A DNA stretch of 64,000 bases from positions 19,538,001 through 19,602,000 of the forward strand of contig NC_058339.1 in the NCBI RefSeq assembly GCF_905475395.1. Direction: 5' to 3'. The stretch is from Chrysoperla carnea. Taxonomy: Eukaryota; Arthropoda; Insecta; Neuroptera; Chrysopidae. The notes under the pieces were generated by a model. That model searched no databases and was not told the origin of the DNA. It saw nothing but the letters and a program-made list of their open reading frames with translations. Below are positions 40,101-64,000 of this stretch, piece by piece. Both the position numbers and the translations under genes were made by a program. Within the stretch, counting starts at the first letter, position 1. Each line of letters starts with the position of its first letter.

Positions 40101-42103
40101 TATATATCATTTTGATAATAGTACTTTTAGCACTATATTCTGAACACAAACGCGCACAAAATCTGCGAAATACAAAAAAATAAAAAATTTCCATAATGCC
40201 AAAGTGGTTAAGGTCGTTGTATTACTATGGTCATAGAGTCATGAAATTCGAAATTTTGTAATACTTATTAAGGATATTATAATACAATTACCAAAGAAAT
40301 TTGAAATCGATTGACAGCCTCTAACTCTAGATAAACCTAATCAAAGTTGGAATCATTAATCCTACCCCCCTACCCCCCGCCCTTAAAGTTACAGTAAAAA
40401 TCCTTAAATAATCGGCCTAGAAGATGCGAATTTTTTTTTATAATTTGGAGTAAACAATTCTTTGCAAACTAGTCAGAATGTAAAAAATAAAGCTTTTGTG
40501 CATCTAATAAAATCACTCAATAATATAAAAGATTAAGATACAAAAAATTATAATTATGAATTATTGTTATTATTTTTCATAATTTTCCTTGATTTTTCAA
40601 GGACTTTGAATTTTAGAAACTATACTCATTGTATACAATATTGACGACATAAGTAATGGTCCACGTTATAAAACATTTTCGTGTTTTGTGGAATAAAATA
40701 AATATCAATTTCCTTTTTCTAGATAAGGTTATTCATTTATAGCGTACCTATATCGTATGTTTTAAAATAACCATCCGGTTTTGTCTATTCGTGTTTCTAG
40801 CACATTTGAATCAACGTCCCTGTGGCGCAGAGGATAGCGCGTTGGACTTCTAATCCAAAGGTCGTGGGTTCGATCCCCGCCAGGGATGCAGTGACTTTTT
40901 TATTTCATTTTCAATTAGTCAAACAACTTAGTTATAATTGATTTTATTAACAATTTCATCAAAAAAAAGTTTTTTTATTCAAAATTTTTATATATTTTAT
41001 CCTTTATCGAGACGGTGCATCTTTAAGAAAAAGAATATTTTGCATTATATGATGAATCTTTTTAATTATTTACGTTTTAATTAATTAAATTCAAAAATAT
41101 TCGTTGTAAAAGCCGATATTTTGTAACTTATTACTCACATACTTTGCCTGGCCCAAAAGAGAGAGACCTCATCTGCAGACGATCACAGTCTATATAAGAA
41201 TCTTCATCTCTCTAAATCTACTCTACTAATCTTATCTAATACTTACTTTGCATTCCATCGAACTACAGCATAATCTCTGATTAAATAATAATAAATATTT
41301 CCTTTGAAATCGGATATTAATCCTGAAGAAGGGCCTAACTTATTTCCTAAATAGGTCACATTGATAAAAGCAGGTTCTATCTACAAAAAAATAATTAAAT
41401 TAGTTGAAAAATTTTTAAAAATATATATATGCTTAGGTCTTACATCACCAACGATTGCAGGAGGTCCATTCAATTTTCTTAAAATATTCAAATTAACACT
41501 AAATAGTCGCTCATCGGATTTTCCACTCAAATACAATATTGGTTCCCTTTTTGAAACCGCAAAATAACTAGCAAAAATATTCAATGGGCTATTTTCATTT
41601 TCAAATTTTAATCTCCAGTAACGATGCTCTTTTAATGAATAAACCAAAATTTCATTTTCATTAGAATAACCAATATACGCCCTAGATCCTGTAAATGCAT
41701 TGACTACGGGATCAATGATAATTGTATTCAAATTATCCTTCAAAACATTTTTTAAATCACAGCTTAATAGTTCGGTATATGTTAAAGTATTGTACACTAA
41801 AATTTTAGGAATAACTTCATTTGATTTAGGCACATCTAATATCCACAATCGACCACGCGAATCTATATCCATCCGTTTACATGTTATTAAATTATTTTGA
41901 TTCGCGAATGGTTTTAATTTTGTTGTTGGAAAATATATACTGAAGTATTGAATTTCGTATAATGTTGGTATTAATTCAGGTAAACACACAAAAAATCGAT
42001 TACGATAGTAATTTACACTGGATAAATATAATGTATTGTTTATATCATTTGCATTGATGTTTAAGAAACATATACAATAAATCAAACTAAGTAACAAGAA
42101 CAT
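37150..42103 (-). CDS. Yellow/MRJP-family secreted protein, three exons
   Basis: Exons are 42103-41444, 41380-41247 and 37342-37150 (987 nt, 328 residues); each junction has GT/AG (donors GTAAGA and GTAAGT) and the frame continues through all three. Residues 1-18 form a signal peptide. The body matches the Yellow/major royal jelly family: CKRMDIDSRGRLWILDV at 75-91, an AYIGYSNENEILVYSL stretch, WRLKF, PILYLSG...LFSV, SSGLISDFKGNIYY in exon 2, and a QYSIWAVTNNN ending in exon 3. Yellow proteins are secreted and act in cuticle pigmentation and related processes; the role of this one is unknown. It is short (family usually above 400 residues), mainly at the N-terminus. The exact paralog is not assigned. 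The 3.9-kb second intron hosts a tRNA gene and a hAT MITE. Confidence 0.85.
38040..38480. repeat. repeat with internal inverted arms inside the yellow-like intron
   Basis: Starts with 'tactaatattataaatgcg' and a CTGT run, a motif common in insect dispersed repeats. It contains facing arms near 38200-38235 and 38350-38390 ('tacgatttttatccctcaaa' and its complement). Minus-strand frames at 37955-38242 and 38287-38475 lie in it and are not genes. Confidence 0.5.
39076..39113. repeat. 18-bp near-perfect hairpin
   Basis: Arms 39076-39093 and 39096-39113 are inverted copies with one mismatch and a 2-base loop; the core is AATCCGCCTAG. It is GC-richer than its surroundings and lies in the second intron of the yellow-like gene. 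Confidence 0.6.
39485..39752. mobile_element. hAT-type MITE with 8-bp target duplication
   Basis: Ends CAGGCATGGGC and GCCCATGCCTG are perfect inverted repeats. They are flanked by ATTTAGAG (39477-39484) and ATTTAAAG (39753-39760), an 8-bp duplication with one difference. At 268 bp it has no coding capacity. Confidence 0.8.
40816..40888 (+). tRNA. tRNA-Arg (anticodon UCU)
   Basis: A full cloverleaf of 73 nt without intron. The acceptor stem GTCCCTG pairs with CAGGGAT (one G-U at the end). The D stem is GCGC/GCGC, the anticodon stem TTGGA/TCCAA with loop CTTCTAA, the T stem GTGGG/CCCGC with loop TTCGATC, and the discriminator is G. The anticodon TCT reads AGA codons for arginine. The internal B box (GGTTCGATCC) is intact. 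It sits on the strand opposite the yellow-like gene, inside its second intron, and has its own polymerase III control. Confidence 0.95.
40896..40901 (+). terminator. polymerase III terminator of the tRNA gene
   Basis: A run of six T residues begins 7 bases after the tRNA end, as expected for RNA polymerase III termination. Confidence 0.75.
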
Positions 42104-43415
42104 TTGGATTCAGAAAATATAACATGGAATACTTAATACAAACATATACTCTACAGGTACATTTACTATGCAGTCGTTTTAAAATGTTTTGGATAAAATT
42201 TGCTGAATATTGTATTTTGATTAAGAAATGTTTACAAGAATCTAATAAATGAGGTCAAATTTTATTGCAAAGAAGTTTGTAAAAGAATATAGAAACTTCT
42301 CCATGATATTTAATAAAAGGAGACAGAGTCTTGTAAAATATTCTAGGAAAATAAACTGGTGGTAAAGGCTGCATTTTGAATAAACTAAAATGCTGCTATC
42401 ATTTTGGCCAATAATTTTTACAACGTAACATATTTTTGTAATTTATACTTAATAACTTCCTATAATAGGTTCTCTAACACCTTTGGTTAAATGCTAAAAA
42501 CGTTTCATCCAATAAAAAATTTTTAATCCATAACTTTCGAGTGTTCTGATTCAATTGTTTTGCTCTGTTCATAAAGATAAACCTCATATTTAAATTTAGA
42601 AGTTTCCATGTTAGGTGTTGATATTCTCTATAACTTTTTTCTGTAAATAATCATAGAGTAGTTAGTAACACAATTATTAACAGTAGATATATAAGAAAAT
42701 ATAGATGCAGCATTGACATATAATAAGAATCTGCTGGTGAAACAGCAAGCTGTTATTGATGCGCTATGTTTGGGTGATAACGATTCATGTCATGTAATTA
42801 CATAAAATAATGGACAATGAGTGTTTGTAGGCTACAAAATATCATACTTACAAAAAAATGAAAATGAAAGGATTTAGTTATTTACGCTTTTGGATGAGCA
42901 GGCAAGTTATTAAATTACATAACTACTTTACTAAATGATTGCCCTAATGTGAACAAGACCTTAGCCAAACACGACGTTGAGGACCTTGTTTTTTATGTAG
43001 TTGTCCAATCCTTTTTTCTTTTTTATTTAACAAAAATTGGCAATAGACATATCCAATTCTTTAATGCTATAAAAATAACAAGAAATTAAGTACCCATACT
43101 TATGCATTGGTTTTTAAAATAATCAGTACCCGTTACAATCATAACGTTACGTTACCCGTTACTTTTGATTAATATAATTATTAATATGACCATTGGTAAG
43201 ATTTAATACGAGTAACGAGTAATTCATTATTGTAAAGTTTCAGTACTCGGTACTAGATGGCGGACTCGTTACTCAGTATTCGGTACATTCGGTTTTTTAC
43301 AGCTTTACAATCCTTACCTTTATTTACCATGCTTACTCTATTACCTATGACATCTATGGTATGCATACATAACCTTACTTCATAATATTATAAATAATAA
43401 AATAAGTCTTTAAGC
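42104..43415. other. intergenic region between yellow-like gene and Pop5
   Basis: The two genes are transcribed away from each other, so both promoters should lie here. No clear TATA box was picked out. A stretch near 43130-43260 is rich in GTTAC/GTAAC words in both orientations. Confidence 0.4.
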
Positions 43416-43933
43416 ATGGTTAGATTTAAAAACAGGTATGTTATAATTATTAACGACAATTTATTCAGTTTTTTTTTGTATTACACAAGTTATGTTTTAG
43501 ATATGTGACAGTTGAAATTACTCCAGTCGAGAAGCATTCCGCCAAAATATTCGAACTTAAACCTAATGGGCTGTATAATGCTATTATTGCAAAGGTGCAA
43601 CAATTGCATGGGGATTTTGGAGTTGCTGCAATCAAAGCCGGATTCGTAGCTAAATATTGTAATAAATTAACCAGGATTGCATTAGTTAAAGTAAGACATG
43701 GACCACATAGATTTGTCACGAGCTCATTGCCCTTTATTACAAGTATTGATACAAAAGCCGTTACTATAAGGACGTTATATACAGGTGCTACAATAAAACA
43801 ATGTTTCAAGTTTATCATTGGTTACCAAAAAACAAAATTAATTGAAACCTTACGCACGTTTAAAACAAATGAGGAAAAAGAAAATTTCAGAAAAGCAATT
43901 ATGGATTTAGAAACAATTGCTAAAGTTACGTAG
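43416..43933 (+). CDS. Pop5: ribonuclease P/MRP subunit POP5
   Basis: Two exons: 43416-43435 (20 nt) and 43501-43933, with a 65-nt intron bounded by GTATGT and TTTTAG; 150 residues. POP5 belongs to the protein core of the nuclear RNase P and RNase MRP ribonucleoproteins, which mature the 5' ends of tRNAs and process rRNA. The tiny first exon supplies MVRFKNRY, matching the MVRFKHRY start of animal POP5; without it the protein would begin inside the family domain. Other family hallmarks are GDFGVAAIKAGF, LPFIT (83-87) and YTGATIKQC (100-108). The length fits the family. The next gene starts 786 bp downstream on the same strand. The minus-strand frame at 43465-43818 is a shadow of this gene. 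Confidence 0.93.
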
Positions 43934-53189: not shown

Positions 53190-53752
53190 ATGAATCGATT
53201 CATTAAACTGTCGTTGATTTTCATTATAATAATTGAAAGTAAATTGTTTTTTGTAAACACAGCTCCAGCAGCAAATTCATTAAAAAAATTACCAAACAAG
53301 TCAAGTGATATTGATCCAGAAGATTGTAGTGATTTGGAAATTCATGATGAACGACAAAATGGTACTGAAAACTATCGAATTGCAATTGATGGATTAATTT
53401 TTATCGTTGGATCCCCAGAAAGTTTAGCTTCACTGGGATCAAGTGATTTGTTTAATGAACAAAATGCGACAAATATTGTTGACCCAGTTTTGGAAGATGA
53501 TTATCCACCAATTTATGTGAGTCGACCCACTGTTGAAACTACTACTGAAAAAAGTTCAAATATTAAACAGTTTTTATTGTAAGTATAAACAAAAGAAATT
53601 AAGTATCGTTAAAGATTCCAATTATATATCTTTATTTTCATTTTGCATATAGATCACAAAATCAACAAATTCAGAATATGCTGATTCCATTATTTACAAG
53701 AAATTCTCCGAAAACTAGAAATAAAAATGGTAGATTAGATAATAAACTGTAA
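53190..53752 (+). CDS. secreted protein of the YDQRQ cluster, tail without cysteines
   Basis: Two exons, 53190-53578 and 53653-53752 (GTAAGT donor, ATATAG acceptor), 162 residues. The ATG at 53190 is the first in frame. Residues 1-24 look like a signal peptide (N-R-F-I-K, then a long isoleucine-rich core, A-P-A after it). Residues 52-73 (HDERQNGTENYR...) align without gaps with residues 29-50 of the protein at 56364-55537 and 41-62 of the one at 62646-60472, which marks the three as paralogs. A T/S-rich stretch and an R/K/N-rich C-terminus follow (TRNSPKTRNKNGRL), with neither cysteine of the C-x11-C tail seen in the other two. Possible N-glycosylation sites at N-G-T and N-A-T. Function unknown. 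AATAAA occurs at 53922. Confidence 0.75.
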
Positions 53753-53921
53753 ACAATGAAAACTTAAATTTAAATTAATGAATATGATTATTATTATTTA
53801 TTTATTCATTTTTAATGGTTACATTAATTTATATTTATGTTTTTTTTATTACAATTGCAACAGAAGTTAAATAGCAGTGTTTTGTATATTCTCCAAAAGC
53901 CAAGAATATAAAATGGATATA

Positions 53922-53927
53922 AATAAA
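53922..53927 (+). terminator. polyadenylation signal for the 53190 gene
   Basis: AATAAA lies 170 bp after the stop codon, inside an A-rich run. Confidence 0.4.
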
Positions 53928-54369
53928 AAAGATTTTTAAAAACTAATATATTTTATTTATTTTTTTAAAAGAAAGTTTTTTAAAAAATGTAGTTGGATTG
54001 GTTTCTAGTCTGGTGTGGCACCCAAATTACATATCCAAAAAATAAAAATGTTTCGATATGGGGTTTAAATTTAACAAAAATAATTTATTTATGCAAATTT
54101 TCTCTACTGGCTCAAATGAAATTTTTATTTAGTCAATTTTATATTAAGGTACGGTTTTGTGTATGGTATATGTGTGTTTTCATCCTAGTATATATGTGCA
54201 TTTCTTACTTGTATTGTGTTCGATAGTAGTAGTCACACTACAGTACAAGTAAAAAAACTTGGTTGTATGCTATAATTGTGTATATACGTATAGCATGGGT
54301 AATGTTATAAGTTAATAATTTTTTACTGCAGTGCTAGAAAAGAGCTACCCTAATCATTTTAACATAAAT
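53928..54369. other. gap without gene
   Basis: Frame 53993-54226 is AT-driven and has no recognisable motif. Confidence 0.45.
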
Positions 54370-54946
54370 TATACAGGGTGTGACATATGCTTGAAACTCG
54401 ATAAATAAATTTAATCCAGGAAAATGCTTCAAACAAAAAATGTTAGTTAAAAAGGCACACATCTTATATTAGGATCGAATTCGATCTAAACTTTCGAGTT
54501 GAATTAAAACCTCACTCTGATTCATAACTGGCAAACATTAGATGAACGCTTTAAATTAAAAAGTTGTTTTTTATAAATTTTATTTGAAACATTTCTTTGC
54601 AAGCCGAATAGTTAAGACAGTAATCGATAGCAAAAAGAATGTCTTGATTTCGCAGAAACTTTACAGCCTTTTTAGCTTAAACTAAACGGTTTGCGGAAAA
54701 AAGTTTCGAACAAAAAATGTTACTTTTTTAATCAATAACAACTTTCTCATTTAAAATGTCCAACTATCGATAACCAGTTATGGAGTAGAGTGAGCTTTTC
54801 ATTGAGCTTAAAAACCTAGGTCAAGTTTAATGTCTGCATAAGACGTGCGCCTATACACGCAACATTTTTCGCTTGAAGCATTTTTAGCGATAAAAGTTAT
54901 TTTTCGAGTTTCAAGTATATGGCAACTTAAAAAAGCGTCCTGTATA
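54370..54946. mobile_element. MITE, about 577 bp, with long inverted ends
   Basis: The left arm starts 'tatacagggtgtgacatatg' and continues with 'cttgaaactcga'. The right arm carries 'tcgagtttcaagtatatg' and ends 'gtcctgtata'. The arms pair over roughly 100 bp with gaps. It lies between two of the secreted-protein paralogs. Confidence 0.65.
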
Positions 54947-55346
54947 TGTATTAAACATACTAAAGCAAGGTAGGTATTAAAATTACAACATAGATAAAGA
55001 TGGAAGCATTCAATATTTTTTTCGAAAATTTTTGGCTATTTTTTACGCGACTGAGCAACGCAAAGTAACTGAAAAGTGTATCTCGGGTGCGAAGTTCCGG
55101 GGGGTAACTCTTATTTATAGTAGTAGTATAGGGAGGTTTATGTGACATTTCAAAAATTTGTATTTTAAACCTTTCGTAGAGAAAATAAAATTCTTATCTT
55201 ATCACCAACCATAAGATGGGCAGGATTTTTACATAAAAATGGGATTAAATACTTTTAATTGAACAACTTATAAAAAACATTATTGTTTTTTATTGATAAT
55301 TAAAAAATGATCATGAATAATAAATAATTATTTTTAAAAAAAATTT
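54947..55346. other. gap without gene
   Basis: AT-rich. The minus-strand frame 54960-55148 is not supported. Confidence 0.45.
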
Positions 55347-55352
55347 TTTATT
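55347..55352 (-). terminator. polyadenylation signal for the 56364-55537 gene
   Basis: AATAAA on the minus strand, 185 bp beyond the stop codon. Confidence 0.4.
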
Positions 55353-55536
55353 GAAAAATCATAATAAAATATTTGGCACATTTTACAATCTTAAAAATAT
55401 TATATCTAATTGATAAAAATAAATTATAATATATAATTAATAAATATCACCCATAAAAATAAAATAAATACACAAAAATATTTATAAATAGCACATAGAT
55501 CATTCATATTGATAATAATTAATTTATAAATAAATT

Positions 55537-56364
55537 TTAATTATCATTAATAAATTTACAGACTCCGTGATCATCTCGTCTACGTCCTGGACCACACTGT
55601 TCTAAAGCACCAAGTAAAATTAGTTGTTCTGGTTCATCTTTTGCTTGTTTTTCTAACAAAATAAATAAACCAAATTAAGAAATAAACAAATACTAAGTTC
55701 AAAATTACTTACCATTAAATGCAGGACCTGATTGGTTACTATCTTCAATAATTAAATCCGTTTCCATCGCTAAAGTTTGTGCTTCTTGATCAATATTTAA
55801 TTCACTAATAGGAATCGGTTGTTTCTCAAATTTTTCACCTTTAATTTCTCCAGTTATATATAATTCATCAGGTACTTGAACTATTGCTTTTCGAAATCTT
55901 CGTACACTTGGAGTTTCATTTTCTTCGGTAGCATTTTCCAGTTTCTTAACTTGAATTGTTGGTGATATTAGTATTTCCTCATTCACTGGCAATAATTCGG
56001 GATGTAATTTAGCCAAATGACTTCGAGTTCGTGATATATCTACACGATATGGTGCCGCTGATTTTGATTCAATAAAATGTTTTAATTCTTCATCAGATTC
56101 AATTGATTTTTCAATATCATCATGATTTTTGCTCTTTTTCGAATCACCTTTATGTGGTATCATTCGAGTTAATAAATCAAATAAACTAAGACCAGATCCG
56201 GTCGATGTTGGTATTATTAATACAACAAAATTTTCTAAATCAGCACGAACATTTACTTGTCCTTCTTGTCGTTGATCATATTTAACTGCAGCACTATTTA
56301 TTCCAATCACAGTTATCATAAATAGGATTGTAATTGCATGTATTAATTGTTTCTTAATCTTCAT
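55537..56364 (-). CDS. secreted protein of the YDQRQ cluster with C-x11-C tail
   Basis: Two exons, 56364-55713 and 55652-55537 (donor GTAAGT, acceptor TTGTTAG), 255 residues. A signal peptide covers about 1-25 (K-I-K-K start, hydrophobic core, N-S-A-A). The shared motif YDQRQEGQVNVR starts at 29 and continues to a hydrophobic LENFVVLI. The middle is charged and rich in E, K and S. A basic R-R-F-R-K site (155-159) could be cut by a furin-like protease. The second exon encodes the tail CGPGRRRDDHGVCKF, with C237 and C249, following C-x2-G-x-R-x-D-x2-G-x-C. The same pattern and spacing end the 62646-60472 protein. It is a paralog in a local cluster. I do not recognise a named family, and the function is unknown. 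Confidence 0.8.
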
Positions 56365-56857
56365 TTTTGCTTCCTAGATTCGCGTGATGTTGTTAATATG
56401 GTATCTGTTCAAGAACTGAATTGAACTATCACATATAGAATATTTACAACCTCCTGATAATGCAGAAGGTACACATCTTCATCAATATATAAATTAAATT
56501 GTTGTATTTACCGCTTGTTGGCCTGATTTAATATTGTTTATTATTATTTTTAATACTAAGAAAGTATTAATTTTTTTTTTTTATAAATATTAAATATGCA
56601 ATAAAAATTTTTTTCTTTTCAATATAATTTACATTTAATTGATATACTTAACATATTCAAGTATAATACTAAAAATAAAAGAAATTCAAGAAATAAAAAT
56701 ATCAATTTCTTTCTGTGAATATAACTGGATTTATCTAAATTAATTACTGATATTGCGAAGAATATTAATTTTATTTGTTATAGGATTCCGTTTCACAAAA
56801 CTATTTCAATCTAAATAAATTTCGATTTTGCCCCAATTTCCTTGATCGGTTTTTTGT
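56365..56857. other. upstream region of the 56364 gene
   Basis: Presumed promoter region. AT-rich, no clear core promoter chosen. Confidence 0.4.
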
Positions 56858-56910
56858 ATTTTATAAATACGCATTTCGACTACCAAGTAGTCATCATCAA
56901 TATGAATTAG
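56858..56910 (-). ncRNA. hammerhead-like ribozyme motif, mutated core
   Basis: Second copy of the motif at 11716-11770. Stem II is a perfect 6-bp hairpin here (GACTAC / TTG / GTAGTC) followed by GAAA, but the core reads TTGATGA instead of CTGATGA, which should abolish cleavage. Compensating changes keep stem II paired (C/A mismatch in copy 1, T/A pair here). Confidence 0.35.
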
Positions 56911-58769
56911 CTAATCGTAATTACGCTTATTATGTATGTTACTCGTTGCTAATTTGGTGGCGGACTGCACAGAAATATCCTAGATTTCTCATTTATTATC
57001 TTCGGCAATATTTATATTTCAATCTAGTTCGAAGGCAAATATTTATTATTTAAAAGCAAATTTAACAAATTTAATCCAAGAAATATCATTGCCTAAATAA
57101 ACAAGTAACTATATCCGGAACAATACGTGTGTCGTTGGCGAAACTTACATTAAGTTCCAAAACAGAAATACCTAAGAACCATAAATAAAATCAAATGGCC
57201 AAGGCTTAATTTTTTATTTTTAGAAAATGTCTATTTAATTATGTTATGGTAACGAAATTCCTACCTAGAATGGTTTGTGAATGATTCTCATGTCATATTT
57301 ATCTGGAGGAGTAGTTTGTTGCCGTTGTTGGACTATTTTTGGCTCTTCACGGGTATTGGAAAATTTTTATCGATTTATCCTTTGCACTTGAAAATATCAC
57401 CTAGGTGATATTTTTACGGATTCAATTAGAGCATCCAGGTGCAACCAAGGAACAAGATGCGTGATTCATAGTGACATTCAAGCTGTTCTTTGATTAATCC
57501 GTTTTGCTACACTGTTAACTTCGATTAGCTTTGTGCAAGCCTGTTAGCCATTTGATGCTTGCCTCATTCCGTTCTTGTTTGGTGTTCGCCTTCGTACCTG
57601 GCCGCAGAGTTAGAGCCAAATTAATAAATAAGTATAATACTAAGATTTTTAATTTACATAAAATACGCTCATGTAATTTCATGTATCTACGCCTTCACCA
57701 CTCTTCGTTGGATCCGCACTTGTGAGTAAAGTTCCGTATTTTGGTGATTTTATATTAAATTTTAATTAATGACCCCCATATGTTAGCTATTTGAAATATA
57801 TTTTACTTATTTAAATTATTTGATTTATTTATTATTTATTTATTCAGTGGACGATTCTTACAATTTTAATTCTACTTCTTATTACATGTTTTACGTGTTC
57901 CAATCGCTAAATTACCAATTAGGTATATTTTAATTATTCTGTTTAGCATGTTGTTTTTGTTGCAGTCAGTAGAAAATAACATAATCACAACCAGTGGCGC
58001 ATTTAGGTTAGTATTTCGGAGTGCTTTTTCGCTCATAGCTTTTCTTCTAATAGAGCTAGCGAGTTGTATGATCACTCATTTTATCAAGGAAACATTAACA
58101 AAAAAATTTGTTATCCGCGCCTCCTGTCTGTCTACTTGTTATTCGATAACTCCTTCTAAACCACGCAACGAATTTTGAAATGGTTTTCTCCAGCATAGGT
58201 ATAGATAAATTTTAAAGGGATGATTTCTTTGTATGTGGCGAACCTTTCTGTATCAACGTGGTATTTTTTTTTATAAAAAATGTATAAGTAGAGACGTTTT
58301 TATTTTTTTTTAGTTTTCGTAAATCATCTTGCCACGGCTTTATGTGACGAACATCTGTACAAAATTTTTCGCAAAAATTTCGCAGTTATTTGGCTCCCAA
58401 AAGTTATGTAAGCCTCCTGGGAAAACTCGGATTACACGCATTTAGGGCCCATTATTTATTATATATTTACAGTATTGAAACCATTTTCAGATTCCTGGAA
58501 ATTAATTCTTGCTCGAAAAATTTTAATTTGATTAGTCGACTATCATTTATTTGTTTTGCACATTTCACAACATCACAACGCCAGCAGAATTTAAGACTTA
58601 AGGTGGGGATAAGATAAAAAAGGTAAATAAATATTTAATTTGAATATTTTATAAAATATTATAAATTTTTATTAATTTTACAAAATATCACAAAAATACA
58701 TTTAATTAAAATACAATAAATAAAATTATATTAAAAAAAGTTTTAATGGCTAATTGAGGAATAAAATTA
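56911..58769. other. gap without a supported gene
   Basis: Patches at about 57480-57730 and 57990-58060 are GC-richer, but only short frames cross them (57531-57725, 57948-58178, 58390-58617) and none has a recognisable motif. Confidence 0.4.
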
Positions 58770-58842
58770 TTATGGTTTTTTAACCATTGACACTCCTGCT
58801 CTTCTTATTTTTGATGCCAATCTACCAAGTTGTACTTCAAAT
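58770..58842 (-). other. possible orphan terminal exon
   Basis: After a TTTGCAG acceptor the minus strand stays open for 23 codons (FEVQLGRLASKIRRAG, then VSMVKKP) and ends in a double stop. The basic, R-R-A-G-containing end resembles a secreted-protein tail. I could not find a matching donor upstream; the nearest good one (near 59078) gives an immediate stop in the needed phase. Confidence 0.2.
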
Positions 58843-59934
58843 CTGCAAAGAATTCATATTTTTATATAGTTTTTATTATAATATTGTTTTATTCACGGCT
58901 GCCTGTCTTCTCTATCTGTTCTATGTTGGTAAATTCTGTGTTTGAAAATTAAGATACTTTCCGATAGTATTATAGAAAGTTTCAAATCACAGGGTAATGT
59001 GTAAGTTGAATGACAATACAATATTATGACAAAGCATAGAAATGTGGCAGTTTTAAAACTAGACTGCTTTTCTTACCATCGCTTCCACCATATTTTGATA
59101 TAATACACTTTTTTTGCCTTGTATTAATATAATACTTTTTTTATTTATTTTAATTGTAAAATCATTATTTATTTTAACTGTACTGAAAAGTATGACGAGA
59201 TAAAAAAGCTTTAGATGCTCAAGTTAAGATGTTCAAGAAATTGGAGTTTTATATGGATTGTATTTAATCAGTGCGGGATTCGGTTGTCATTTTCGGGAGA
59301 GACTACACAATTTCGGGAGTCTCCCGATCAAATCTGGAAAGGTGGCATCCCTAATGACTTTGTATTCAAATAAGTCCATATAGCCTGAGCGCCTCGAGCT
59401 CTTACATAGAGTAATAGAGAATTTTTTTTCTTAAAAATACTTTTTTTAAGGGTTTTTTTTCTTAAAAATACTTTTAGTATTGATTTTTCCAAATTTGAAT
59501 TTTGTTAAGGACGAAATTTAGTTTTACGAAACCAATTTATATTGTAAAAAAACAGCTCAATGTAAAATCAGATAGAGAATTAGGTCAGGAGGTCATTACG
59601 TTTTTTTTTTATTTTGTTTTATTGAATATGAATGAATTTCGTATAAAATTAAAAATATCAATACATAACAAAAGAAATTTAATCAAAATTATTTAGTTTC
59701 ACTTTTTCAAAAAAGATCGCCTTCGAAATTTAGCCTTCGTAAAGTTTAAACATTAAATATTTGTAAAGTTTAAAATTTGTATTAAAACTAAAATTGAAGA
59801 AAATCAATTTCACTATACAATCAGTTTTTGTTTGAGTTTAATATTTACGGATATTTAATATCATTTAGATTAAATAGAGTTTAATAGTTATAGGTCCAAT
59901 TTGCCTTCTGTATTTAGAAAAATTCGTTTCTTAG
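58843..59934. other. gap without gene
   Basis: AT-rich. A stretch near 59270-59350 contains CGGGAG repeats facing CTCCCG. The frame 59502-59696 is not supported. Confidence 0.4.
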
Positions 59935-60195
59935 AGCTTCAGATACCTTCTGGCGAAGTATTATAAGCATTCTGCCTAGTCCATAATTAACGCAGATACC
60001 TCTCAGGGCATTTCTGTAGGCTATGCTATGGAAATCACAGTCTTAATAAGCGAGGGGAACTTCTTCTATACCTATTACCTTGCCCGTCTTCTTGTCAGAG
60101 TAGCCGGGTACTCGGATCAGTCTAATAATGCCATTCAGTACTGGAGGTGATTCAGTTTCAAGAAATCTTCGACGCCAGAGTCGTCCAAAGTGTGT
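59935..60195 (-). pseudogene. GC-richer broken reading frame, origin unknown
   Basis: The minus strand is open for about 90 codons except for one TAA. It reads HFGRLWRRRFLETESPPVLN at the start, then GIIRLIRVPGYSDKKTGK, VIGIEEVPLAY, the stop, and NALRGICVNYGLGRM. Its balanced base composition and amino-acid use look like real former coding sequence set in AT-rich DNA. I do not recognise the family. It could be a retroelement piece or a gene fragment. Confidence 0.35.
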
Positions 60196-60284
60196 TAATA
60201 CTAATAATTAATACTCTTACCAATTTATATTTGTGATGTACATTCTTGTTCGTCAAAATTAAGACCGTTTCAGATTCTTTTAAG

Positions 60285-60422
60285 GTAGTACGAGCGCCAA
60301 TGCAAGTTTAGATTTGTGGTTGAAATTATTTGTACCTTATTTTCAACTTAGATGATTTTTGAATTTTTTATTTTATATAAAAAATCAAGCCTTTTATCCA
60401 AAATTGGTTTGGCGCTTGTACA
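60285..60422 (+). mobile_element. MITE of the GAGCGCCAA family
   Basis: The ends 'gtacgagcgccaa' and 'ttggcgcttgtac' are inverted repeats bounding about 135 bp. A partial copy lies at 36080-36167 in inverted orientation. It sits just 3' of the 62646-60472 gene and may supply its polyadenylation signal (AATAAA on the minus strand at 60372-60367). Confidence 0.65.
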
Positions 60423-60471
60423 TCCTTAATATATTCTTATAAATAAATAATTGAAATATGTGTAAAAATAC

Positions 60472-62646
60472 CTACGGTATTCCAGGTCTTCTTAATCGTC
60501 GACATCTACCTAGTTTATCTTTTCGATAACCATTGATACACCGTCTTCGTTTTTGCAATGAATTTGAATCAACCGATGATGATACAGTAGTTTGATTGGA
60601 TAAACTTGGCAATTCGGTAACATCTTCAATAACTATAGCTGTTGTGTTTTCTTTATTGCTAAGCTCACTTTTTTCAGCTAATGGTATTTTATTACTTTCA
60701 AAACCAATTGGTACGGCACTTTTTATTAAATTATTACCATTTAATGCTTCATACAATACTTGAACAGCAATTAATGTTTCATTATCTAATGGTTTTGTAT
60801 TGTTATGTAAAAATATTATATCAGAATCTGGTTGAGTTGAATTTTCTGGCTTTGACGAATTATTCTCAAGTTTTGTTACATTTAAATTTTGTTGTTCATT
60901 TAAATTTTCTGTTGGTCCAGTTGATGCGGTTGTGGATAGATCTAATGGTTCATTTGTTGTTGATGTTGGTTGTTCGGTTACGTTGCTCAATGTGCTATTT
61001 TTCTCTGGATTTGAAGTTGCTAATGTGGTCGATGATGTTGGTACAGAAGATGGTGTTGTAAATACTGGCAAGACTGGTTTGATTGTTAATTCTGAATAAT
61101 CGTAATTATAGTCGTAATCCTAGAACAAGAAAAGTTTGAATTACATTTTTGATTTGAATCTAAAATATTTTAATCCAGTAATTTTCATAGCGGTTTCGAA
61201 TAATTAAAACTTTATACAGTAGAAAAATTTGACGCCCGAACTACAAAAAACACAGTTCAAACTTGATCTTATTTTTCTTTATTACCAATCCTCCAAATTA
61301 TCATAAAAATTAAACGCTATTATCGACTCAAGATCTATAAATACGGATTTATGAGTCTGATCATTATGGAAACCCGTAGGAATGCACGTTTCGTACCATT
61401 TAGTTTCGAAGAAATAATACCTAATTCAAAACTTTTAAATATATTAATTTACCTTTAAAATCATAGTTTTTGAGAGCGAATAAGACAAGTATATATACAG
61501 GCTCTTCTGATTATGCGTATGATATTAATACTATATTTGTACAAAAAACTGCCCAAAAAGTACAGTATAAGTTATTTTTCTCAGGGCAAAGAAGCTTTTT
61601 TAAAGACGAACTGAAAAATGATCTTGATCTTGACCTTGAATGTTATTTCAAAGGAAAATTGAAATTTTCAAATGATAGCTCATATTTTTAAACCCCGCGA
61701 TTTTGAAACTTTACTTCCTGGTATGTAATATCTACGGCGCCATGGTCAACATGACCTTTAGAGATCGTTTAACACTTTTTGCTTATTTCAGGCTGTATTG
61801 GTTAAAGTAGTTAAAAACCAAAATTCGTAAAATTAGTATGGTGGAAAAAAATTCAAAAAAAAATTATTTTAAAAAGTATCGTACAAATATTTATCGACAA
61901 CTCGTAACATTATAATTAACAAATCCAATTCTTGGTAGATAGTACATTTTAAATTTTTCATTCCTGATCTAAGTCTCTACCAAATTCAAAATATAATCCA
62001 TAATTATAATTCTGCCAAAAAACAAATCATAAAAACTATGGTATAAACATATAAAATGGTTTATTTTTCGCCGTGAAGTCCCGTCATTGAAGTAAAATTT
62101 ATATAACTACATATCTCAAAGTAAAACTTCCCAAAACTTAACAAATTCAGCAGAAATCAAATACAATCTACCGCATTTACGCATTGAAGCAGAATGTGCA
62201 AATTGTTAGTCCGAGAACTCCATTCATTACAGGAATATACGGATAAAAAAAAACTATGATTCAATTACTCTAAAGATGTGAAATGAATGCATTTTTTTAA
62301 AATTTTGCTTATTTAAAAGAGTATTTCAAATTACAATCTTGGTGAATATATTAAAGATTTTTACATCGAGTTTTTGATCAACTACTTTCTAATTTAAAAA
62401 TTAATGAAAACACGAAAATTTTAAACTCACCCCTAAGTCACCTAATCCATCATTTAATAAAGCAATAATTTGAAAATCTTTCAAATGTAATCGAATATTA
62501 TAATCGCCAGTTTGTTTTTGATCATATTCTTCTTTTTTCGGTTTATTATTGTCATAACGATGCTTTTTTGGTCTCGCTTGTGCTATTGTTACACATATAC
62601 TAGCAACAATAATTACTTTAACAATCGTTAACATTGTTGTAAACAT
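60472..62646 (-). CDS. secreted T/S-rich protein of the YDQRQ cluster with cationic C-x11-C tail
   Basis: Two exons, 62646-62431 and 61119-60472 (donor GTGAGT, acceptor TTCTAG, phase 0), 287 residues; the 1.3-kb intron is the longest in the cluster. A signal peptide covers about 1-24. The shared motif YDQKQTGDYNIR (41-52) leads into LKDFQIIALL. Exon 2 begins with a tyrosine/aspartate stretch (DYDYNYDY), then about 100 residues rich in T, S, N and P with many N-x-S/T sites, so heavy glycosylation is likely. The end is K-R-R-R (262-265), then C266-x11-C278 with the C-x2-G-x-R-x-D-x2-G-x-C pattern and a basic RRLRRPGIP end. Cutting after KRRR would release a 22-residue cationic peptide with one possible disulfide. 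Function unknown; a peptide precursor is inferred. The plus-strand frame 60681-61061 is a shadow. Confidence 0.8.
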
Positions 62647-63469: not shown

Positions 63470-64000
63470 TTTTGACAAAAAACTAATATTTCGAATCATT
63501 AAAAAAAAGAGTTTCATCAAATACCAAAACAAAATTTTTTTTTTGCGTTTTTCTCGATTTTTTCAAAAATCCTTAAAAAATCGAAAAATTTTTTTATTTC
63601 AATTTCGATAAAACTCAGTATATAACGTAATTTTGACCTAAAAAGTACAAAAATCGGGTGCATTTGATGACTGGTCGAATAGTTTTAGAGATACGGGCTA
63701 AAATCGATCCAAATATTGTGATATCTCAGAAACTCTGCACCCAACCATTAAATTAACCGAATTTTTATACTTTTTGGATCAAAATTACCCCATCCACCGA
63801 CTTTCATCAAATTCTGAAATAAAATTTTTTTTCCCGATTTTCTCGATTTTTTCAAAGGGGTATCCCTTAAAAAAATTGCAAAAAATCGAAAAATTTTTTT
63901 TATTTCCAATTTCGATAAAACTCAGTATAGAAGGTAATTTTAACCCAAAAAGTACAAAAATTGGGTGCATTTGTTGACTGGTCGAATGGTTTTTGAGATA
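63470..64000. repeat. dyad-symmetric repeat family B, copy 4, runs off the window
   Basis: 'gggtgcattt' with its flank recurs near 63656 and 63962, a period of about 305 bp. Within one unit, 'ggtaattttga' ... 'gagata' is the mirror complement of 'tatctcag' ... 'tcaaaattacc', and the poly-A/T half is similarly self-complementary. Frames on both strands (63774-63977 and 63785-63970) encode look-alike peptides because of this symmetry and are not genes. The array continues past the window end. Confidence 0.7.

Follow-up and report, generated by a model that had tools for sequence, protein, structure and literature searches.

The stretch of Chrysoperla carnea DNA analyzed here, referred to below as the window, comprises 64,000 nucleotides (C3:19538001-19602000) of a genome that was searched at 559 Mb and 337 contigs. 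It includes three genes, designated A, B and C, whose predicted products share a 22-residue module near the N-terminus. Two of these, B and C, appear to encode secreted precursors of insect cytokines of the growth-blocking peptide (GBP) type, a reading to which we assign a probability of roughly 0.58. The two predicted proteins have the same sequence-level architecture, namely a hydrophobic start, the module, a linker that is long and variable, and, at the C-terminus, a two-cysteine motif that fits the GBP consensus; the proposed membership of B and C in the GBP group rests on this consensus and this architecture. Gene A is plausibly a module-only relative, which either has lost its cytokine or encodes a pro-region that acts by itself. 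An earlier note on this DNA had described the three genes as diverged secreted-protein paralogs with one common module; this observation is confirmed, and we consider it somewhat better than an even chance that there is a more specific identity, i.e., GBP-type cytokine precursors within a cluster of hairpin-peptide genes.

The models of A, B and C were predicted from open frames and splice-site signals in the genome sequence alone, in a window whose G+C content is 24.6-32.0% per 2-kb step. The first exon of gene A (53190..53578, plus strand) extends from an ATG at 53190 to a GTAAGT donor at 53579, and encodes a hydrophobic, signal-like start, the module and an acidic linker. Its predicted second exon (53653..53752, plus strand) follows an acceptor ending in ATAG and is open to a stop codon; the predicted protein has 162 residues in total and ends in ...NSPKTRNKNGRLDNKL, without a cysteine hairpin. 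Gene B lies on the minus strand. Its first exon (55713..56364; ATG at 56364, GTAAGT donor at 55712) encodes a hydrophobic start, the module and a charged linker with an RRFR site. A 60-bp intron (55653-55712) separates it from a predicted second exon (55537..55652), open to the stop, which was not in the earlier reading and which carries the C-terminal cysteine hairpin motif; the predicted product has 255 residues and the C-terminal end ...LEQCGPGRRRDDHGVCKFINDN. In gene C, also on the minus strand, the first exon (62431..62646; ATG at 62646, GTGAGT donor at 62430) encodes a hydrophobic start, a basic spacer and the module. After an intron of 1311 bp, the predicted second exon (60472..61119) encodes a Ser/Thr/Asn-rich linker with 10 N-glycosylation sequons, a KRRR site and the cysteine hairpin motif, for a predicted protein of 287 residues ending in ...QKRRRCINGYRKDKLGRCRRLRRPGIP. 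All three introns have GT/AG ends, but their placement varies: in A the intron follows the linker, in B it directly precedes the last 38 residues, and in C it comes directly after the module. The hydrophobicity of the protein starts was assessed with Kyte-Doolittle hydropathy as 11-residue means, rather than with a signal-peptide predictor, and the peak values are 2.97 for A, 2.83 for B and 3.04 for C. Pfam scans gave no family above cut-off for A exon 1, B or C; the rows below cut-off, i.e., Osmo_CC and WRNPLPNID for B and Fung_rhodopsin for C exon 1, were set aside.

The hairpin motif is CGPGRRRDDHGVCK in gene B (55555..55596, minus strand) and CINGYRKDKLGRCR in gene C (60499..60540, minus strand), and it ends 5 and 8 residues before the respective stop codon. 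Both sequences fit the GBP consensus C-x2-G-x(4,6)-G-x(1,2)-C-[KR] given in a passage of PMC6439351, which neither A nor the downstream genes F and G described below fit. Neither protein has any cysteine outside the hairpin pair, except for one in the hydrophobic start of C. Two statements of the earlier note must thus be revised: that outside the module each protein is unlike the others, which is wrong for B and C in that both have this C-terminal motif, and that no named family can be recognized, in that B exon 2 and the last residues of C match the published consensus. That is, two of the three module genes carry the hairpin tail, and the last residues of gene A, NSPKTRNKNGRLDNKL, may be the remnant of a tail that was lost.

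Pattern scans were carried out on the six-frame translation of 264 kb, i.e., the window and twenty 10-kb stretches around it, with 40 second-order Markov resamplings to estimate the number of sites expected by chance. The GBP consensus has four sites in this region, in B, C and two downstream genes, D and E; all are on the minus strand, and the mean over the resamplings is 0.075. A slightly widened version has 2 sites in the window, against 0.067 expected (30 resamplings). The form C..G...D..G.C occurs at 11 sites against 0.0 expected; all are minus-strand sites within a 54-kb span, from 55.6 to 109.5 kb, and the remaining ~210 kb scanned has none. Dropping the aspartate from the pattern gives 12 sites, where 0.6 would be expected. 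In an AlphaFold2 model of the C tail, two strands are predicted, at residues 17-19 and 25-27, with the second strand beginning at the second cysteine; this beta hairpin is of modest confidence (mean predicted local distance difference test score, pLDDT, 68; core ~79). Foldseek returned 27 weak matches in the PDB for the hairpin. Among these are a Manduca paralytic peptide (1hrl), aligned at 1.2 A, and armyworm GBP (2eqq), aligned at 0.9 A; both alignments span 16 columns.

The module itself was located at residues 52-73 of A (HDERQNGTENYRIAIDGLIFIV; 53343..53408, plus strand), 29-50 of B (YDQRQEGQVNVRADLENFVVLI; 56215..56280, minus strand) and 41-62 of C (YDQKQTGDYNIRLHLKDFQIIA; 62461..62526, minus strand). 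All three gapless positions claimed earlier are therefore confirmed, as is the placement of the module close behind a signal peptide, insofar as hydropathy shows a hydrophobic start ahead of it in each protein. In ungapped 22-residue comparisons of the first 110 residues (BLOSUM62), the scores are 57 for B-C, 41 for A-B and 31 for A-C. Shuffled controls (60 per pair) have a mean of ~20 and a standard deviation of ~4, with maxima of 34, 30 and 31, respectively; when the first 24 residues are kept fixed, the maxima are 30, 34 and 37. The similarity of B to C and of A to B thus stands out, whereas that of A to C is by itself not beyond chance, because its score does not exceed the shuffle maxima. 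The strict pattern [YH]D[QE][RK]Q.G..N.R has 3 sites in the 264 kb, against a mean of 0.0 in the resamplings, and a relaxed scan for 7 of 9 positions recovers the modules of A, B and C with no fourth site. A chance origin of the module was rejected on the basis of the pair scores relative to the shuffles, the pattern resampling and the 7-of-9 scan.

Profile comparisons, against a target set of 8239 open reading frames (ORFs), reveal that A is the weakest of the three members. A module profile built from A and B finds C at E 0.0067 (next best 0.47), and one from A and C finds B at E 0.0025 (next best 0.95), but the profile from B and C does not have A among the 11 matches listed. Taking all the evidence together, we count A as a probable member of the module family, though less securely so than B and C. 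Beyond this region, the module and tail sequences were compared with the own genome, Pfam, the PDB and published papers. Genome-wide queries of this kind score only the best candidates from a first pass; among these, the C module and the B module each found only itself (the A module was not queried), and so did the C tail and the B tail. Scans of viral contigs gave 53 pattern matches and those of prokaryotic contigs 71; no relative was confirmed among them, as expected for an insect gene. Searches of the open literature for the module strings YDQRQ, YDERQ and YDQKQ found no paper on the module among those listed, judged by title, and the hairpin string led to one paper, on a tapeworm by its title, and to nothing relevant. 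The structure model of the module is poor (mean pLDDT 52). In sum, the view of a fast-evolving extracellular family with a single shared module stands with regard to the strong divergence, the signal-like starts and the module itself, most weakly for A; it fails in that the hairpin is also common to B and C.

Four further hairpin genes, D, F, G and E, were found by ORF and motif scans on the minus strand, 27-46 kb beyond the window, in the twenty 10-kb stretches scanned. (Their coordinates continue the window numbering beyond 64,000, with open frames counted from the preceding stop.) Gene D (frame from 91329) is signal-bearing and has CPPGYFPDEKGVCREVW near its end, in agreement with the GBP consensus; so is gene E (frame from 109885), with CEDGYRPDEHGICREIW near its end. 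Gene F (frame from 103172) has a signal-like start and six tandem two-cysteine, secapin-like hairpins (~102200-103100) of the type VI[DE]VPxKCPPGxxxDExGxCQ, the sixth copy being slightly varied. In gene G (frame from 107496; ~107239-107496), an RTKR site is directly followed by AVIDVPSKCAAGQRADENGQCH; a further upstream exon is likely, because this ORF lacks a signal-like start. None of these four genes has the module; in the 264 kb scanned, its only sites are those in A, B and C. The arrangement of A to G is a loose cluster, since other genes intervene, e.g., a plus-strand ORF of 504 residues with RGS domains between C and D (L003:2851-4365; Pfam E 6e-34), which we take to be AKAP10-like. Adjoining gene E is an ORF of 755 residues, rich in Gly, Ser and Tyr and with a signal-like start (~113404-115671, minus strand, outside the window).

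The tails of B and C are partly tied to D-G by sequence profiles. A profile of the D-G hairpins has the B tail as its best non-member among the 8239 ORFs, at E 0.13, followed by 5.7 for the next ORF. The B tail alone finds E at E 0.0014 and F at 3.7e-6, although the latter value sums the repeats and the best single one is at 0.53; neither D nor G rises above background in this search. The profile built from two sequences, the tails of B and C, finds F at 5e-15 (six repeats summed; best single 0.066), E at 2e-4, D at 0.035 and G at 0.092, and the best ORF outside these four scores 0.3. With the C tail alone the link is not clean: the second-ranked ORF is F, at 0.035 and with weak single repeats, and unrelated ORFs are at 0.13. 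Of the own-genome queries with downstream tails, that with E gave 8 matches, all in the cluster, i.e., E itself, D and the six F repeats, the seven others at E 0.004-0.39; that with G recovered, besides G, three of the F repeats (E 0.010-0.56).

If B and C are indeed GBP-type precursors, the signal peptide would be removed from each and the two hairpin cysteines would form one disulfide. By analogy with GBP, a protease would then cut at a basic site, RRFR in B and KRRR in C, and the released C-terminal hairpin would circulate as a signal to blood cells and tissues; its receptor may be of the Methuselah type. Basic sites are present in B, C and G, their cleavage being a prediction. The module may serve folding, sorting or latency; because it is near the start and common to otherwise unlike linkers, we favor its reading as a pro-region, with which the released cytokine tail could dispense. 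The C linker, with its ten sequons and Ser/Thr-rich composition, would suit a role as a secreted spacer. Passages of PMC6439351 describe Drosophila GBP as a product of proteolytic processing that acts via the G protein-coupled receptor Mthl10 and calcium signaling, and GBP peptides as 19-25 residues long, with the fat body as main source. The genome searched here has at least five Methuselah_N matches, in keeping with an insect origin, and the five within 12 kb at C4:32778001-32789353 form a cluster of possible receptor genes.

With non-lepidopteran GBP-like cytokines, B and C share the signal-like start, the C-terminal two-cysteine motif with the exact consensus and, at modest confidence, a predicted hairpin; as in GBP, the peptide would be at the C-terminal end of a precursor whose hydrophobic start is recognized from hydropathy. 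They differ in that the precursors, of 255 and 287 residues, share an N-terminal module that the literature string search did not find, and in that the basic sites of B give no obvious release of a 19-25 residue peptide. The lepidopteran ENF peptides (Pfam GBP_PSP, PF02425) are similar in cysteine spacing and hairpin, and 1hrl and 2eqq are among the weak structural matches. Weighing against the GBP assignment, however, the GBP_PSP model has no match in the own genome at E 10 and none for the tails, and the structural matches of the hairpin to the PDB are not significant; nor did phmmer with the C tail, or the profile of the B and C tails, find any match in the PDB.

A different reading of the hairpins is that, instead of being cytokines, they are effectors, namely secapin- or IMPI-like protease inhibitors or antimicrobial peptides, with the module as a pro-region for secretion or assembly. 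IMPI (insect metalloproteinase inhibitor), a multi-disulfide inhibitor, is the top weak structural match of the hairpin, with which it shares a C-x2-G-Y-x2-D-x2-G-x-C turn, and it is listed in the PDB profile search, in which GBP is not; past the hydrophobic start, though, B and C have no cysteines besides the hairpin pair. The hairpins of F and G are of the VI[DE][VT]PxKC[PA][PA]G type, with two cysteines each, as in secapin and secapin-like peptides (PF17521), and the whole of F matches Pfam Secapin with 48 bits (E 1.2e-12), above the 25.9-bit cut-off. This score is nevertheless inflated by the repeats, since F also exceeds the cut-off for adipokinetic hormone, antistasin and the KH domain; single F repeats are below the Secapin cut-off, and so is the weak match of G (E 0.086). 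According to passages of PMC11335235, secapin-like peptides, which occur in several insect orders, are beta hairpins with a single disulfide; protease-inhibitor-like and antimicrobial activities are cited there for secapin-1. B and C themselves, however, have no Secapin match and lack the VI[DE][VT]P stretch, and F differs from secapin in having six copies in one protein. Moreover, the residue after the second cysteine is basic in B and C, as in the GBP consensus, but Q in 6/6 F repeats. We consider an effector role rather unlikely.

Convergence on a common EGF/TIL-like turn could also account for the resemblance that the B and C tails bear to GBP and to the hairpins downstream. A profile of all the hairpins does match fibulin-4 and guamerin, as well as IMPI, in the PDB, and the C tail is poorly linked to the others, either alone or by profiles from which it is excluded. 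Convergence would not, however, readily explain why 11/11 hairpins of the C..G...D..G.C form are on one strand within 54 kb of the 264 kb, nor why every genome-wide match of the E tail is in the cluster, and it seems improbable to us. The view that derives from the earlier note places the function of a fast-evolving secreted family in the module and treats everything else, the hairpin included, as incidental. It would account for gene A, with a module and no hairpin, and it agrees with the finding that the best ungapped B-C match in the first 110 residues is the module. Yet the C-terminal motif of two of the three module proteins is, in its slightly widened form, expected 0.067 times in the window, and similar hairpins are present in four more genes nearby that have no module; this view we regard as quite improbable.

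Taking B and C as GBP-type precursors, a wider and doubtful proposal is that a single ancient insect gene family has GBP-type cytokines as one branch and secapin-like peptides as another, both kept in this cluster; the cytokine branch would have the module as a pro-domain not described before, and venom secapins would have been recruited from this signaling family. The cluster would then consist of the cytokine precursors B and C, the module-only A, the single-hairpin secreted proteins D and E, the RTKR-site precursor G and the six-hairpin F. A passage of the review PMC6439351 calls the extent of GBP signaling conservation in other insects unclear, and passages of PMC11335235 leave the origin of secapin-like peptides open. 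With both kinds of hairpin in one cluster, beside precursors that share a pro-region motif, orthology would offer a test of both questions, and for searches the 22-residue module would provide more sequence than the 14-residue hairpin by itself. Among the matches listed in a literature search, no paper had 'secapin' together with 'growth-blocking', and 'secapin' and 'paralytic peptide' occur once each in PMC10610885.

Other features were observed in and near the window. An ORF at 41381-42109 (minus strand) has a major royal jelly protein/yellow domain (Pfam MRJP, E 5.9e-10), and another at 43454-43933 (plus strand) has an Rpp14/Pop5 domain (E 4.9e-25), of the RNase P/MRP subunit family. Repeated ORF fragments of the type IFVLFGSKLPYILSFIEIG at 63517-64000 and L003:55-646 are probably a dispersed repeat.

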